From positions 331,821 to 395,820 of the forward strand of contig JABGXB010000003.1 in assembly GCA_018675975.1 (NCBI GenBank): a stretch of DNA of 64,000 nucleotides, read 5' to 3'. Below, in pieces: positions 5,897 to 48,841 of the stretch. The DNA comes from Candidatus Woesearchaeota archaeon. GTDB lineage: Archaea > Nanobdellota > Nanobdellia > Woesearchaeales > JABGXB01. Position 1 is the stretch's first letter. Every line of letters starts with the position of its first letter. The notes under the pieces were generated by a model, which worked only from the letters and a program-made list of their open reading frames with translations, made no database searches and had not been told where the DNA came from. Made by a program: the position numbers and the translations under genes.

Positions 5897-6203
5897 TTTT
5901 ACCTTTTGATAATAAAACAATATTGTTTCCAATAACATTAATTAATATACAATCACATTTTGATACAATTTCATTTGCTAATTCCTTTCTATCACGCAAA
6001 CTCGATATTGATTTATTCAATTTAATTTTGATTAATTTTTTTTTATTAATTAAAGACCTAATTTCATCAATTAAAGGCCTAGTAATGCCTTTTTTACCAA
6101 TATGCAATATAGGTTTTAAATTATGTGCTGTTTTTTTGATATCATCTAAGTTAAACATAATACATAACAAATTAATATATTTAAAAAAATAACTAATTTT
6201 CAA
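5886..6203 (-). CDS. YhbY-like CRM-domain RNA-binding protein
   Basis: LKPILHIGKKGITRPLIDEIRSLINKKKLIKIKLN... typical CRM domain (GKKG loop). Confidence 0.85.
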   Translation of the reverse strand: MKISYFFKYINLLCIMFNLDDIKKTAHNLKPILHIGKKGITRPLIDEIRSLINKKKLIKIKLNKSISSLRDRKELANEIVSKCDCILINVIGNNIVLLSKGKNGN

Positions 6204-7149
6204 TAATATTTACTTGTTCATTCATTATAATGTTTGAAAGATATTTGATTTCAATTATAATTAATAACAGTTCAACATATATTTTATTTAAGTAAATATT
6301 TTTCGAAACACCAAATTTATCATAAACATCTTTTTCTAATTTTTTTAAATCTTCAAATGAATCATTTGCAAGCATAAAATTTTTTGAATGATAGGAATTC
6401 ATCAAATCTGAAAATAAATTATTAATATTTTTAATATATTCTATAAAATTTTTATCCAAATAATCTGAAAGACTATAATGAAATATAGTATCTGCAGTCC
6501 TTAAACAATTTTTTAAAATTAATTTAAATTTTTTTAAAATTAAAAAAAAGTTTAATTTATCATGATTGTTTATATCAATATTAAATTCATTATTATTACA
6601 AGATAAATTAATTATTCTATTAATTAAGTATTGAATTGAATTAACTTCCTCATATCTTTCATTTATTGACTGTAAATCGGCCTTGGAATGAACTTCACTA
6701 AGAATAGAAAAAATATATTTAATTATAATTTCACAACGTTTTATCATATTATTAATAGACAATTTTGAATAATCCAATAAATCTTCAATTATAATTTTAT
6801 CCTTACCAGATTCAATAATATTTAATCCATTTAATTTAGAAATAAAAGTTTTAATTTCACTATTTTTTTTTATTATATTACTACACTTTATTTCAATTAT
6901 TTCGGCTCCTTTAACATATGCAGATAAAATTAATTTTTTTATTGCAGAAATCGGTAAATCTTCAACATTCAAATTACATATTTTTTTAATTTTTTTATTT
7001 TTCTCAATAGATTCAATTGAAATTGAAGTATCATTTTCAATTACTGAAACATAATTACCACTAGTCAAATTGTTATTTTTTAACCATTTTTTTGGTAAAG
7101 ATATAATAAAACTACTTTTACCAAAAGCAATTATTTTTCTTAATTTCAT
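6193..7149 (-). CDS. AbrB-like DNA-binding domain + PhoU-domain phosphate uptake regulator
   Basis: MKLRKIIAFGKSSFIISLPKKWLKNNNLTSGNYVSV (SpoVT/AbrB swapped hairpin) followed by helical PhoU-like region; internal Met taken as start. Confidence 0.75.
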   Translation of the reverse strand: MKLRKIIAFGKSSFIISLPKKWLKNNNLTSGNYVSVIENDTSISIESIEKNKKIKKICNLNVEDLPISAIKKLILSAYVKGAEIIEIKCSNIIKKNSEIKTFISKLNGLNIIESGKDKIIIEDLLDYSKLSINNMIKRCEIIIKYIFSILSEVHSKADLQSINERYEEVNSIQYLINRIINLSCNNNEFNIDINNHDKLNFFLILKKFKLILKNCLRTADTIFHYSLSDYLDKNFIEYIKNINNLFSDLMNSYHSKNFMLANDSFEDLKKLEKDVYDKFGVSKNIYLNKIYVELLLIIIEIKYLSNIIMNEQVNIIEN

Positions 7150-7360
7150 AAACATATAAAACATATACCCATTTATTAAACTAATTATTAAAATTAATAT
7201 AAAATAAATCAAAATAGAGCAATTTTAATTAAAAAAGTTAAAAAAAACATAAATAACATATACAACAATATAAAAACATATAGTAAGATTTATATACTAA
7301 TCAACAAACATTAAATTGTTTATAAGATTTACTTAAGTTTTATAAAAGAGGTGCAGGTTT

Positions 7361-38030: not shown

Positions 38031-39143
38031 ATGGAAAAAAAAATTCAAAAGTTAGATCCTACAACAAAAGTAAAATTAAAAAAACTTCTAAAACAATTAG
38101 ATTCAATTAGAGCAAGACATACAGAACTAATTACAGTATATATTCCAGCAGGTTATGAAATAACTAAAAAAATTCAACACTTACAAGATGAACAAGGAAC
38201 TGCCACTAATATTAAATCTTCATCAACTAGAAAAAATGTAATTAATGCAATTGAAAAAATGATACAAGCATTAAAAATAGTTGGAAGAACACCAGCAAAT
38301 GGATTAGCAATATTTGCAGGAAACATAAGTGAAAAAGAAGGTTTTGAAGACTATAAAGTATTTTCTTATGAACCAACAATACCAATGAATCAAAATTTAT
38401 ATAGATGTGATAAAATATTTATTACAGATGTTTTACATGATTTCATTGATGACGATGAATTATTTGGACTGGTTGTCTTAGATAGAAGAGATGCCACAAT
38501 TGCATTATTAAAAGGAAAATCCATTCAAGTTTTAAAAAAAACACATTCAGATATACCAGGAAAAACAAAAGCAGGTGGACAATCTGCAATGAGATTTCAA
38601 AGATTAAGAGTTGATGCAACTGATCAACACTATAAAAAAATTGCAGAATATATGAAAAATGAATTTCTATTTAAAGAAAATTTAAAAGGTATTTTAGTTG
38701 GTGGACCAGGAGTTACAATAAATGATTTCTTAACAAAAGGATTCATAACAGGAGATGTTCAAAAAAAAATAATAGGTACTGCAGATTTAAGTTATACAGA
38801 TGAATGGGGCCTAAAAGAATTATTAGAAAAATCCCAAGACATACTTTCAAATGAAATTATCATTGAAGAAAAAAAATTAGTAGATGAAATTTTAACCTTA
38901 TTAAGAGATCAATTTAATAAAGTTGCATATGGAATTGATGATGTAAAAAAAGCACTAGAAATGGGTGCAGTTGCTAGATTATTAATATTAGAATCAATTG
39001 ATGAAAATTTAAGTGAAGAATTAGAAAATATTTGCCTTAATTTTAAAGGAGAAGTTAAATATATAACTGACGACACAGAACACGGTGCACAGTTAAAAGC
39101 ATTAGGTGGAGTTGTTGCAAAATTAAGATATCCAATTGAATAA
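38031..39143 (+). CDS. prf1: Archaeal peptide chain release factor aRF1
   Basis: NIKSSSTRKNV, KTKAGGQSAMRFQRLR, DEWGLKELLEKS. Confidence 0.96.
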   Translation: MEKKIQKLDPTTKVKLKKLLKQLDSIRARHTELITVYIPAGYEITKKIQHLQDEQGTATNIKSSSTRKNVINAIEKMIQALKIVGRTPANGLAIFAGNISEKEGFEDYKVFSYEPTIPMNQNLYRCDKIFITDVLHDFIDDDELFGLVVLDRRDATIALLKGKSIQVLKKTHSDIPGKTKAGGQSAMRFQRLRVDATDQHYKKIAEYMKNEFLFKENLKGILVGGPGVTINDFLTKGFITGDVQKKIIGTADLSYTDEWGLKELLEKSQDILSNEIIIEEKKLVDEILTLLRDQFNKVAYGIDDVKKALEMGAVARLLILESIDENLSEELENICLNFKGEVKYITDDTEHGAQLKALGGVVAKLRYPIE

Positions 39144-44598: not shown

Positions 44599-44904
44599 AT
44601 GAAAAAACCAAAAATCATGAGAAAATTTTGCCCTAATTGTAAAACTCATACAGAACATAAAATAAGTTCTACTAAAAAGAAAAATAAAAATGTATTATCA
44701 AGAGGTTCTAAAAGTAGAGTAAAAAAAAGAGGTTCAATGGGAATGGGGAATCATGGAAGAATATCTAGACCTCCTGTAGCTAAAAGGAAAAGAGTAGGAG
44801 CAAAATTAGCTAAAAGAACAGACATTAGATATGAATGCTCAGAATGTAAAAAGCAATGGTGTCAAAGATTCGGTATTAAAACAAAAAGATTAGAATTTAT
44901 ATGA
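44599..44904 (+). CDS. rpl44e: 50S ribosomal protein L44e
   Basis: FCPNCKTHTEHK...RGSMGMGNHGRISRPPVAKRKRVGAK...YECSECKKQWCQRFGIKTKRLEFI. Confidence 0.93.
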   Translation: MKKPKIMRKFCPNCKTHTEHKISSTKKKNKNVLSRGSKSRVKKRGSMGMGNHGRISRPPVAKRKRVGAKLAKRTDIRYECSECKKQWCQRFGIKTKRLEFI

Positions 44905-46425: not shown

Positions 46426-47091
46426 TTAATCAAAGAAATCCACTTTACCATCTAAATAAATTCCCTTATGTAATTTAACTGGACGCCAATTATCACTAAC
46501 TAAATTTGCATCAAGCCAATCCGATAGTTCTTTAGCATTACCAATGGTTGCACTTAATCCAATCAATTGAATACCAGGTAATTTAATTTTTAATAAAGTT
46601 ATTAAAACCTCTAATGTAGGACCACGACTTGTATCATTTAATAAATGAATTTCATCAATTATTATTGTCGCAATATATTTCAACCAAGAAAATCCATGTC
46701 TTATCATACTATCTAATTTTTCACTCGTACAAAATAAAATATCACAATCACTAAATTTATCACCACTCTCATCCATATCACTAGTAGCAATTCCAATTTT
46801 TAAATCCGGATAACATTTTTTAAATTCATCAAATTTTTCATTAGCTAAAGCCTTTAATGGCACAATATAAATTGCTCTCCCCTTATAATTATAAATAGAA
46901 TTTAACATTACTAATTCAGCAATAAGAGTTTTACCTGATGCAGTAGGAGTACAAACTAATAAATTTTTTCCCTCTAATAATCCAGCCTCAATTGATTTTG
47001 TCTGACTCGGCCTTAAAATTTCAATACCGCGATTAATTAAATGATCATATACATTTTTATGTACTATATTTTTAATAGATTCAAGATTCAT
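46426..47091 (-). CDS. Hel308-like helicase, RecA1 domain only
   Basis: LRPSQTKSIEAGLLEGKNLLVCTPTASGKTLIAELVML, IIIDEIHLL, GLSATIGNAKELSDWLDANLVSDNWRPVKLHKGIYLDG then stop. Confidence 0.88.
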   Translation of the reverse strand: MNLESIKNIVHKNVYDHLINRGIEILRPSQTKSIEAGLLEGKNLLVCTPTASGKTLIAELVMLNSIYNYKGRAIYIVPLKALANEKFDEFKKCYPDLKIGIATSDMDESGDKFSDCDILFCTSEKLDSMIRHGFSWLKYIATIIIDEIHLLNDTSRGPTLEVLITLLKIKLPGIQLIGLSATIGNAKELSDWLDANLVSDNWRPVKLHKGIYLDGKVDFFD

Positions 47092-47197
47092 AATAAAACT
47101 CAAACTCAATAATTTATTAAATTATTGAAACAAAGAATACAATAATATTTATAAAAAAAATGTATTAATAGCTATTGTCAAATAAAAAAAGGTGTCA

Positions 47198-48841
47198 ATG
47201 AATAAAAAAGAAGTCTCATTTACAAGTATTGAAAATATAAAAAAAGAAATAGATAAAGCTACCTCAAAACAAGGAATTAGTGATGAAATTAATGACATTA
47301 GTAAAATAATTGATATTGACACCTGGGTTAAAATTCAAGATAATTTTGCAACAGCAATAAATTTACCAGTATTTCTAATTGAAGAAAGTGGAACTGAGAT
47401 AGCAGTTTCAAATGACTTCCCATATTTTTGTAAATTAATTAATTCAAAAGAAAAAGGAAGAAAAGCATGTATTAATTGTAGAAAAAAAAATTATAAAGAA
47501 TTAAAAGAAGAAGATACAAATATAAAATATTTTGAATGTCATGCAGGATTATTTAATATAATGACACCAATTAAAATCAATAATAAAATGGTTGGTGCAA
47601 TTAATTGTTCCTCCATTCTTAAAAGTTCCAGAAATATTGCAAAAGTAATAAGGGTCGCAGAAGAATTAAATATTGAAAGTGTTGAACTAATCGATGCAGT
47701 AAATGAATTACCAATTAAACAAAGAGAAGATTTAGTTTTTAATGGAACTCTACTATATGTTTTATCTCAAACAATACCAGGTCTAGTAAATGAACATAAA
47801 ACCAATATAGAAAAAATAAATGAATTAGAAATAATTAATAAATTTTCAAATGAAATTCAATCCACATTACAATTAAATGAAACATTAAAAATAATATTAA
47901 ATAAAATAGTAAAATTAACTAATGCCATAGAATCTTCAATTACAATATACAAAGAAGACAAAGATAATAAAATCCTAGAAAGATATACAAATTCAAAAAA
48001 TGATTTACAATTATTTCAAAATATTGAAAAACAAATAATAAATAAAATTACTAATGAAAAAAATTTAAAAAAAATATATGAATTTGAAAAAATAGAAGAT
48101 GAATTTAATATAAAAACTACATTTATTAAAAAAATAAAAACCATTCCATTATTAATGAGACAAAAAATAATAGGTTTTATTTTTATCTACTTAGATAATA
48201 TAGAAAAAGATAAAAATTTAGAATTATTACAAATTATTTCTAGTCAGTCTGCATTTGGAATAATAAATGCACAACAATTCAAAGAAATTAATACACTAGC
48301 CATAATGGATAAATTAACAAATTTATATAATAGACGATATATAATGGAAAAATTAGATGATGAACTTAAAAGAGCACAAAGAACTGAAAGATTTTTATCT
48401 ATAATATTAATGGACATAGATCATTTTTCAAATTATAATAATAATAATGGACACCCTGAAGGAGATAAATTATTAACAAAAATATCCGCTTTAATTAAAG
48501 AAAATACAAGAGAAATTGATATAATTGGAAGATATGGTGGTGAAGAAATCATAGTACTATTACCAGATGCAAATATAAATGAAGCCTTGCCAGTAGCTGA
48601 AAGAATAAGAAAAGCAATAGAAAACTATCCATTTGCAAACAGAGAAAAACAACCACTAGGAAAAGTAACAACATGCATCGGTCTTGTAAGCCACAGAGGA
48701 AAAAATAAAACAAAAGATGATTTAATAAAACTTTCAGATGATTTATTATATAAATCCAAAAAAGCAGGCCGAAATAAAACAAGTTATAGAATAATAGATG
48801 AAAAAAGTAGTGAAATATTACAATCTCAAACCCATCAATAA
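47198..48841 (+). CDS. PocR-GAF-GGDEF protein (putative diguanylate cyclase)
   Basis: PocR-like region (FCKLINSKEKGRKACINCR...FECHAGLFNIMTPI), GAF-like region, GGDEF domain: MDIDHFSNYNNNNGHPEGDKLL, REIDIIGRYGGEEI. Listed GTG start 47192; ATG 47198 preferred after AAGGTG. Confidence 0.9.
   Translation: MNKKEVSFTSIENIKKEIDKATSKQGISDEINDISKIIDIDTWVKIQDNFATAINLPVFLIEESGTEIAVSNDFPYFCKLINSKEKGRKACINCRKKNYKELKEEDTNIKYFECHAGLFNIMTPIKINNKMVGAINCSSILKSSRNIAKVIRVAEELNIESVELIDAVNELPIKQREDLVFNGTLLYVLSQTIPGLVNEHKTNIEKINELEIINKFSNEIQSTLQLNETLKIILNKIVKLTNAIESSITIYKEDKDNKILERYTNSKNDLQLFQNIEKQIINKITNEKNLKKIYEFEKIEDEFNIKTTFIKKIKTIPLLMRQKIIGFIFIYLDNIEKDKNLELLQIISSQSAFGIINAQQFKEINTLAIMDKLTNLYNRRYIMEKLDDELKRAQRTERFLSIILMDIDHFSNYNNNNGHPEGDKLLTKISALIKENTREIDIIGRYGGEEIIVLLPDANINEALPVAERIRKAIENYPFANREKQPLGKVTTCIGLVSHRGKNKTKDDLIKLSDDLLYKSKKAGRNKTSYRIIDEKSSEILQSQTHQ

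Follow-up and report, generated by a model that had tools for sequence, protein, structure and literature searches.

A predicted PocR–GAF–GGDEF diguanylate cyclase is an inherited archaeal gene in the order Woesearchaeales

Introduction

To our knowledge, c-di-GMP is described as a bacterial messenger that is almost absent from archaea. The steps that lead from a cyclase dimer to the product are established for PleD, WspR, and PadC, and we infer them below for the protein analyzed here. An RxxD I-site placed five residues before the GGDEF signature is common in diguanylate cyclases without being obligatory, and in a functioning c-di-GMP circuit it would be unusual to have a lone cyclase with neither a recognized phosphodiesterase nor a recognized receptor.

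From an archaeal perspective, a signaling census of 2018 accepted one archaeal GGDEF protein and noted REC–GGDEF fusions in DPANN bins with a warning of contamination (PMC5847659), more than 300 archaeal GGDEF BLAST hits, many of them from DPANN and Asgard, were counted in 2021 (PMC8646023), and as late as 2022 a review called for such hits to be confirmed on archaeal contigs (PMC10086821). The 2021 hits represent the same general observation as the one made here, in the form of counts only. We add to them evidence of orthology and of a conserved site, together with a check of the active site and a census of potential partners. A literature search, which reached few subscription papers, returned no paper on PocR–GGDEF proteins or on c-di-GMP in this lineage.

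Here, we analyzed a 64-kb stretch of DNA (the window) from a Candidatus Woesearchaeota archaeon, corresponding to positions 331821-395820 of a 397668-base contig in a three-contig genome of 1.03 Mb that is rated 100% complete and 0.16% contaminated. The size of this genome and its relatives suggest that the archaeon belongs to DPANN. The GGDEF protein that it encodes has in common with PleD- and WspR-type cyclases (PF00990, TIGR00254) the metal, base, GGEE(F/I), K/R, and I-site residues, but differs from them by PocR and GAF domains in place of the receiver domain, by its archaeal host, by a GGEEI signature, and by the lack of known partners in its genome. The PadC-type cyclase of Idiomarina (PDB 5llw/5llx), its best Foldseek match, has the same succession of sensor, GAF, coiled coil, and GGDEF, although the PadC sensor is a phytochrome light sensor instead of PocR and the global TM is about 0.3, so that the layout alone agrees. 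As for the sensor, a homologous domain is found in the PocR transcriptional regulator (NF047788/PF10114), which binds DNA whereas the output of the window protein is GGDEF, and the NF047788 match, at 48 bits, stays below the equivalog cut-off of 500. Finally, a Nitrospirota protein (L085, PocR–GAF–GAF–GGDEF) shares with the window protein an N-terminal four-Cys PocR, a GAF, and a C-terminal GGDEF with an I-site, and the N-terminal region of another one (L127) resembles that of L085; these Nitrospirota PocR proteins nonetheless have two GAF domains, are about 30% identical to the window protein, and lie outside the archaeal clade.

Results

Domain Architecture

The product of the ORF at 47198-48841 (+) consists of PocR, a signaling helix, a weak GAF, and GGDEF, with the following features:

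47198..48841, + strand: PocR–GAF–GGDEF protein, predicted diguanylate cyclase, 547 aa from the ATG (ORF list; Pfam; NCBIfam TIGR00254, 166 bits)
47306..47776, + strand: PocR sensor domain, residues 39-195, with the four-Cys motif C80, C93, C96, C116 (PF10114, E 9e-29; model pLDDT 88)
47723..47863, + strand: long helix from PocR to GAF, signaling-helix-like, residues 178-224, 47 residues (AlphaFold secondary structure)
47870..48262, + strand: GAF-like domain, residues 227-357 (PF13185 [GAF_2], E 0.007, below cut-off; predicted fold)
48299..48778, + strand: GGDEF catalytic domain, residues 370-529 (PF00990, 144 bits, E 3e-42; PleD alignment; motif census)

The frame is open from a GTG at 47192, from which residues are numbered throughout, and the ATG at 47198, the start taken in the original prediction, appears to be the likelier start because AAGGTG, a Shine-Dalgarno-like sequence that includes the GTG, is found directly upstream of it. 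The profile matches lie well over their curated cut-offs for GGDEF (PF00990, 144.4 vs. 23.8 bits; TIGR00254, 166.3 vs. 37.4 bits) as well as for PocR (PF10114, 100.7 vs. 23.9 bits), when the GAF assignment is weak and consists of a sub-threshold Pfam match combined with a predicted fold. A chance origin of the ORF match is excluded by the E-values and by a full-length alignment with eleven relatives. In the AlphaFold model of the whole protein, PocR, the 47-residue helix, GAF, a coiled coil, and GGDEF follow one another in this order, and the best fold matches of this model are sensor–GAF–GGDEF cyclases, namely the PadC-type 5llw/5llx, PleD, and WspR (Foldseek).

An Intact Predicted Active Site

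The GGDEF domain aligns with that of PleD (1w25) over 162 residues with zero gaps, which places the metal Asp, the Asn, GHxxGD, RxxD, and GGEE(I/F) in register between the two proteins. The catalytic set of the window protein comprises the metal D408, N416, D425, GGEEI 449-453, K523, and R527, in which N416 and D425 are the guanine-recognition residues. All the motifs listed in the original prediction are thus found in place: the metal Asp of MDIDHF (D408), NGHPEGD, and GGEEI, preceded by the REID I-site (R440xxD443), whose distance of exactly five residues to GGEEI was also correctly given. On the basis of the profiles, the PleD alignment, and these intact motifs, the proposed identity as a c-di-GMP synthase is retained in the form of a predicted diguanylate cyclase.

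In the 12 PocR–GAF–GGDEF orthologues, where the mean column identity is 47%, D408, N416, G420-H421, D425, D443, and GGEE 449-452 are all invariant, and so are E452 and K523, which are needed for catalysis beyond binding. The variable residue of the signature is I453, an Ile in place of the Phe found in most members, and 11 of the 12 proteins retain the I-site. Since these catalytic residues are invariant among proteins that are no more than 24-40% identical to that of the window, the active site is under selection. At the scale of the order, a motif census found the metal D and GG[DE]E kept in 40/41 and the I-site in 34/41 GGDEF domains, these being the best-scoring, full-length domains, a set biased toward intact ones that provides no unbiased rate.

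The PocR Sensor

The original prediction had described a CxxC and a Cys/His pair in PocR and proposed small-ligand or metal sensing. A sensor domain is indeed supported by the PF10114 match, and the motifs are present, but what they form is a four-Cys motif (C80, C93, C96, and C116) that is not special to the window protein because the two Nitrospirota PocR–GAF–GGDEF proteins (L085 and L127) carry the same one. These four cysteines occur together in 4 of the 12 orthologues and are essentially gone from the other 8, an all-or-none pattern that suggests one metal or redox site in PocR. The model of this domain (pLDDT 88) has a PAS/GAF-like topology with no close solved relative in a fold search of the PDB; searched on its own, PocR returned only weak PAS/GAF-type matches (CodY and IclR types, TM about 0.4), and therefore no ligand can be named from the fold.

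A Native Archaeal Gene

The cyclase gene is surrounded by archaeal genes, as originally predicted and as confirmed here by profiles, which also recognized a Gins51-type protein, an archaeal-type T2SSE (secretion) ATPase, and GlyRS in the window, in addition to:

38031..39143, + strand: archaeal release factor aRF1 (TIGR03676, 378 bits), also found near the orthologous cyclase in two relatives
44599..44904, + strand: ribosomal protein L44e, archaeal/eukaryotic-type (PF00935)

The GC content of the cyclase gene is 0.230 against a window mean of 0.228. In a comparison of 40 genes, it also ranks with those of more typical codon usage. Elsewhere in the window, the minus strand encodes at 46426-47109 a 227-aa DEAD-box helicase reduced to the N-terminal helicase half, a short form that is conserved rather than broken because a 222-aa counterpart with 57% identity is present in a relative (G004; L075 17025-17693). 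Also on the minus strand, at 6193-7212, lies an AbrB/MazE-type plus PhoU-like regulator, whose homologues directly adjoin the PocR–GGDEF gene in six relatives when 40 kb separate the two genes in the window.

Distribution and Phylogeny

GGDEF proteins had been presumed rare in archaea, which does not hold for this lineage, in which they are present in 106 of the 193 genomes of the order and in 111 of the 236 genomes of the phylum. PocR is found in 12 of these 193 genomes, every time in the same open frame as GGDEF. The twelve resulting PocR–GAF–GGDEF proteins align over their full length and are 24-40% identical to that of the window. Pairwise BLAST of the window protein against those of G010, G084, and G082 yields 38-42% across some 500 aa, and the orthologues extend to three other families of the order with a colinear architecture. 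A plain protein query of genome contigs found no relative, and an alignment query of genome contigs found bacterial homologues only and no archaeal relative.

Because a GGDEF-only tree was poorly resolved, we inferred an unrooted phylogeny from GAF plus GGDEF, in which 16 archaeal copies (the 12 with PocR and another 4 that lack it but occupy the same chromosomal site) form one clade against 25 bacterial homologues, with a support of 96/94 and in 98% of bootstrap trees. Bacteria were sampled as the best 80 matches, such that a closer bacterial sister may exist; among these matches, PocR was seen only in the Nitrospirota proteins, which are placed elsewhere in the tree. The phylogeny that had been suggested as a way to find a bacterial donor thus returned the archaeal copies as one native clade, with the Nitrospirota PocR proteins outside it. 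We infer that the gene was acquired from bacteria once, long ago, and has since descended vertically. In this order, it is a genuine, inherited archaeal gene.

A Conserved Site in Relatives

The cyclase of eleven relatives (G010, G082, G084, G174, G126, G163, G030, G099, G182, G136, and G138) adjoins, or is one gene away from, a YGR210-type Obg GTPase (PF08438), mostly in convergent orientation. Eight relatives (G010, G082, G174, G080, G126, G163, G030, and G136) have, no farther than about 7 kb from the cyclase, a small GTPase in the arvA/oapA position, usually together with OapB (PF09846) and OapC (PF09845). Both arvA and arvB fall within this distance in seven relatives besides G010. In Haloferax, arvABC is an operon needed for normal extracellular-vesicle formation (PMC10927574). 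The relative G010, whose 1.30-Mb genome is assembled as one contig and rated 100% complete, displays a co-directional run (L056 5127-10784) of arvA, arvC, an HD hydrolase, a PfkB kinase, GAF–GGDEF, and PocR–GAF–GGDEF genes, separated by gaps of -4 to about 120 bases, in which the GAF–GGDEF paralogue is degenerate (YAGDEF). Two arrangements were observed besides: a PfkB-like part and a GAF–GGDEF that are apparently fused into one 786-aa protein in G084 (L061), and four GGDEF-family ORFs within 13 kb of an archaeal contig, amid arvABC-like and core genes (L060; G174:C59 9001-29000).

A search of the 146 kb that surround the cyclase gene of the window revealed neither arvABC nor the YGR210 GTPase, and the synteny of the relatives is therefore not kept in this genome. 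Only looser neighbors are shared: aRF1 is 9 kb from the cyclase in the window and lies on the cyclase-bearing fragments of G099 and G182, and in G163 the contig of the cyclase also carries GlyRS and the T2SSE ATPase with its partner. A functional tie of the cyclase to vesiculation is on this basis a lead and not a result, and the synteny is accounted for just as well by an ancestral insertion next to core genes.

Partners and Receptors

The original prediction had noted that no EAL, HD-GYP, or PilZ partner was present in the window and had proposed a genome-wide search for these domains and for c-di-GMP riboswitches. This absence extends to the whole 1.03-Mb genome, in which profile searches, which miss very divergent receptors, recovered no EAL, HD-GYP, PilZ, or MshEN match and no second GGDEF. 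Neither class of riboswitch was found in this genome: the search for c-di-GMP-I matched one relative and none of 14 control genomes, and the one for c-di-GMP-II, which had no positive control, matched nothing, including in the 14 control genomes. A complete c-di-GMP circuit of the known type is accordingly not recognizable in the window genome, where neither a phosphodiesterase nor a known receptor was found.

Across the 193 genomes of the order, we counted HD_5/HD-GYP in 55, EAL in 4, and PilZ, MshEN, and the c-di-GMP-I riboswitch in 1 each, such that known c-di-GMP receptors are almost missing. An intact HD-GYP protein with HDIGK and HHExxNGxGYP motifs is encoded in G011 (L178 6058-6714), within an archaeal block that shares four genes with the window (around 9.3-15.9 kb), and the same genome has a REC–GAF–GGDEF cyclase. 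HD-GYP is thus native in at least this relative and, with cyclases and HD-GYP both present in relatives, synthesis and breakdown would therefore exist in parts of the order.

Several candidates were set aside. The c-di-GMP-I riboswitch of G084 (L064; G084:C38 8950-9045, 60 bits) is a likely contaminant, being located on a contig with one giant protein whose secretion signal looks bacterial, as judged from sequence, and an HD-GYP gene on G084:C60 falls under the same suspicion of a bacterial contig in the bin. We also weighed whether the HD-domain protein that adjoins the cyclase in G010 and G084 could be a partner phosphodiesterase, and rejected it, as it is absent from the window's own genome and, in five other genomes, shows no linkage with arv or GGDEF genes. 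Separately, open frames of about 725 aa in G069:C5 (L159) and G004:C1 (L160) encode a GGDEF followed by an EAL, a domain otherwise almost absent in the order, and a degenerate HD-GYP-like protein adjoins a 1104-aa protein and an ORF resembling a class III nucleotide cyclase in G010 (L058 4016-8998).

Discussion

In the reading that we consider likely, the product of the window gene is a soluble diguanylate cyclase, probably a dimer, the gene is an old archaeal one inherited vertically, and its c-di-GMP acts via a receptor outside the known families. According to this model, the PAS/GAF-like PocR and the GAF would sense an intracellular ligand or a redox/metal state, with a four-cysteine site in PocR that is probably metal-binding, and the long helix and the coiled coil would relay the signal to the GGDEF domains by rearranging a parallel dimer. 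Two GTP-loaded GGDEF domains would then meet and join two GTP into c-di-GMP, a product that may in turn shut the enzyme off through the RxxD I-site. The protein is probably active as a c-di-GMP synthase and, since searches of the window's own genome found neither PilZ nor MshEN nor c-di-GMP-I/II riboswitches, its product would have to act on a receptor of another family. The ultimate kinship of the gene would be bacterial.

Of the other explanations, the one that survives best, albeit as an unlikely one, is that GGDEF, rather than making c-di-GMP, serves in regulation, binding GTP or nucleotides and operating by protein–protein contact, for instance on the neighboring GTPase in relatives. Indeed, no phosphodiesterase or receptor was found in the window's own genome, relatives keep the cyclase gene adjoining GTPase genes, and some neighboring GGDEF paralogues are degenerate, as exemplified by YAGDEF in G010. 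Yet every catalytic residue, with the catalysis-specific E452 and K523 among them, is the same in all 12 orthologues, and the I-site is kept in all of them except one, which is more in line with an active synthase. More doubtful still is the extended proposal that a c-di-GMP circuit with a novel receptor class is tied, in this order, to arvABC and/or to the YGR210-type Obg GTPase.

It is very unlikely that the cyclase is a relic, that is, the last enzyme of a pathway that decayed in a 1-Mb genome and is now drifting, as could be evoked by the single GGDEF gene, by the absence of partners found in this genome, and by the GGEEI variant, for the ORF is full-length and intact with all key residues in spite of a genome at 22.8% GC, is preceded by a likely ribosome-binding site, and is colinear with its orthologues. 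Similarly improbable is a different cyclic dinucleotide product such as 3',3'-cGAMP, made by Hypr-type GGDEF proteins, with which the failure to find c-di-GMP receptors in the window's own genome would also be compatible. The Hypr enzymes described reportedly have a Ser at the base-specificity position, when this position, D425, is an Asp in 12/12 orthologues, in register with the Asp of the PleD GHxxGD motif. As to bacterial contamination, a chimera, or a very recent transfer, suspected because GGDEF is mainly bacterial, because published censuses raised the doubt (PMC5847659, PMC10086821), and because the bin of at least one relative (G084) has bacterial-looking contigs, this explanation is already refuted, unless several independent assemblies share the same error, by the position of the gene, which lies 47 kb inside the archaeal 64-kb window on a contig of 398 kb, by a GC content and codon usage that match those of neighboring genes, and by a complete one-contig genome and 10 other genomes that carry the gene in one archaeal clade at a conserved archaeal site.

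The favored reading remains that of a native and probably active cyclase. Relatives, among them one with a complete genome in a single contig, carry the gene at a conserved archaeal site, and all these copies form a single clade, which answers the doubt of contamination expressed in the literature, along with the concern, voiced in the original prediction, that the contig could be a bacterial–archaeal chimera. Overall, our observations show that GGDEF proteins with intact catalytic residues are native and common in one archaeal order, where one family of them occupies a conserved archaeal site. If these cyclases are active, c-di-GMP signaling would be a normal archaeal trait in this order, and the near absence of PilZ, EAL, MshEN, and riboswitches would call for a receptor of a new type. 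The question of c-di-GMP signaling in archaea thereby becomes directly testable with recombinant proteins.
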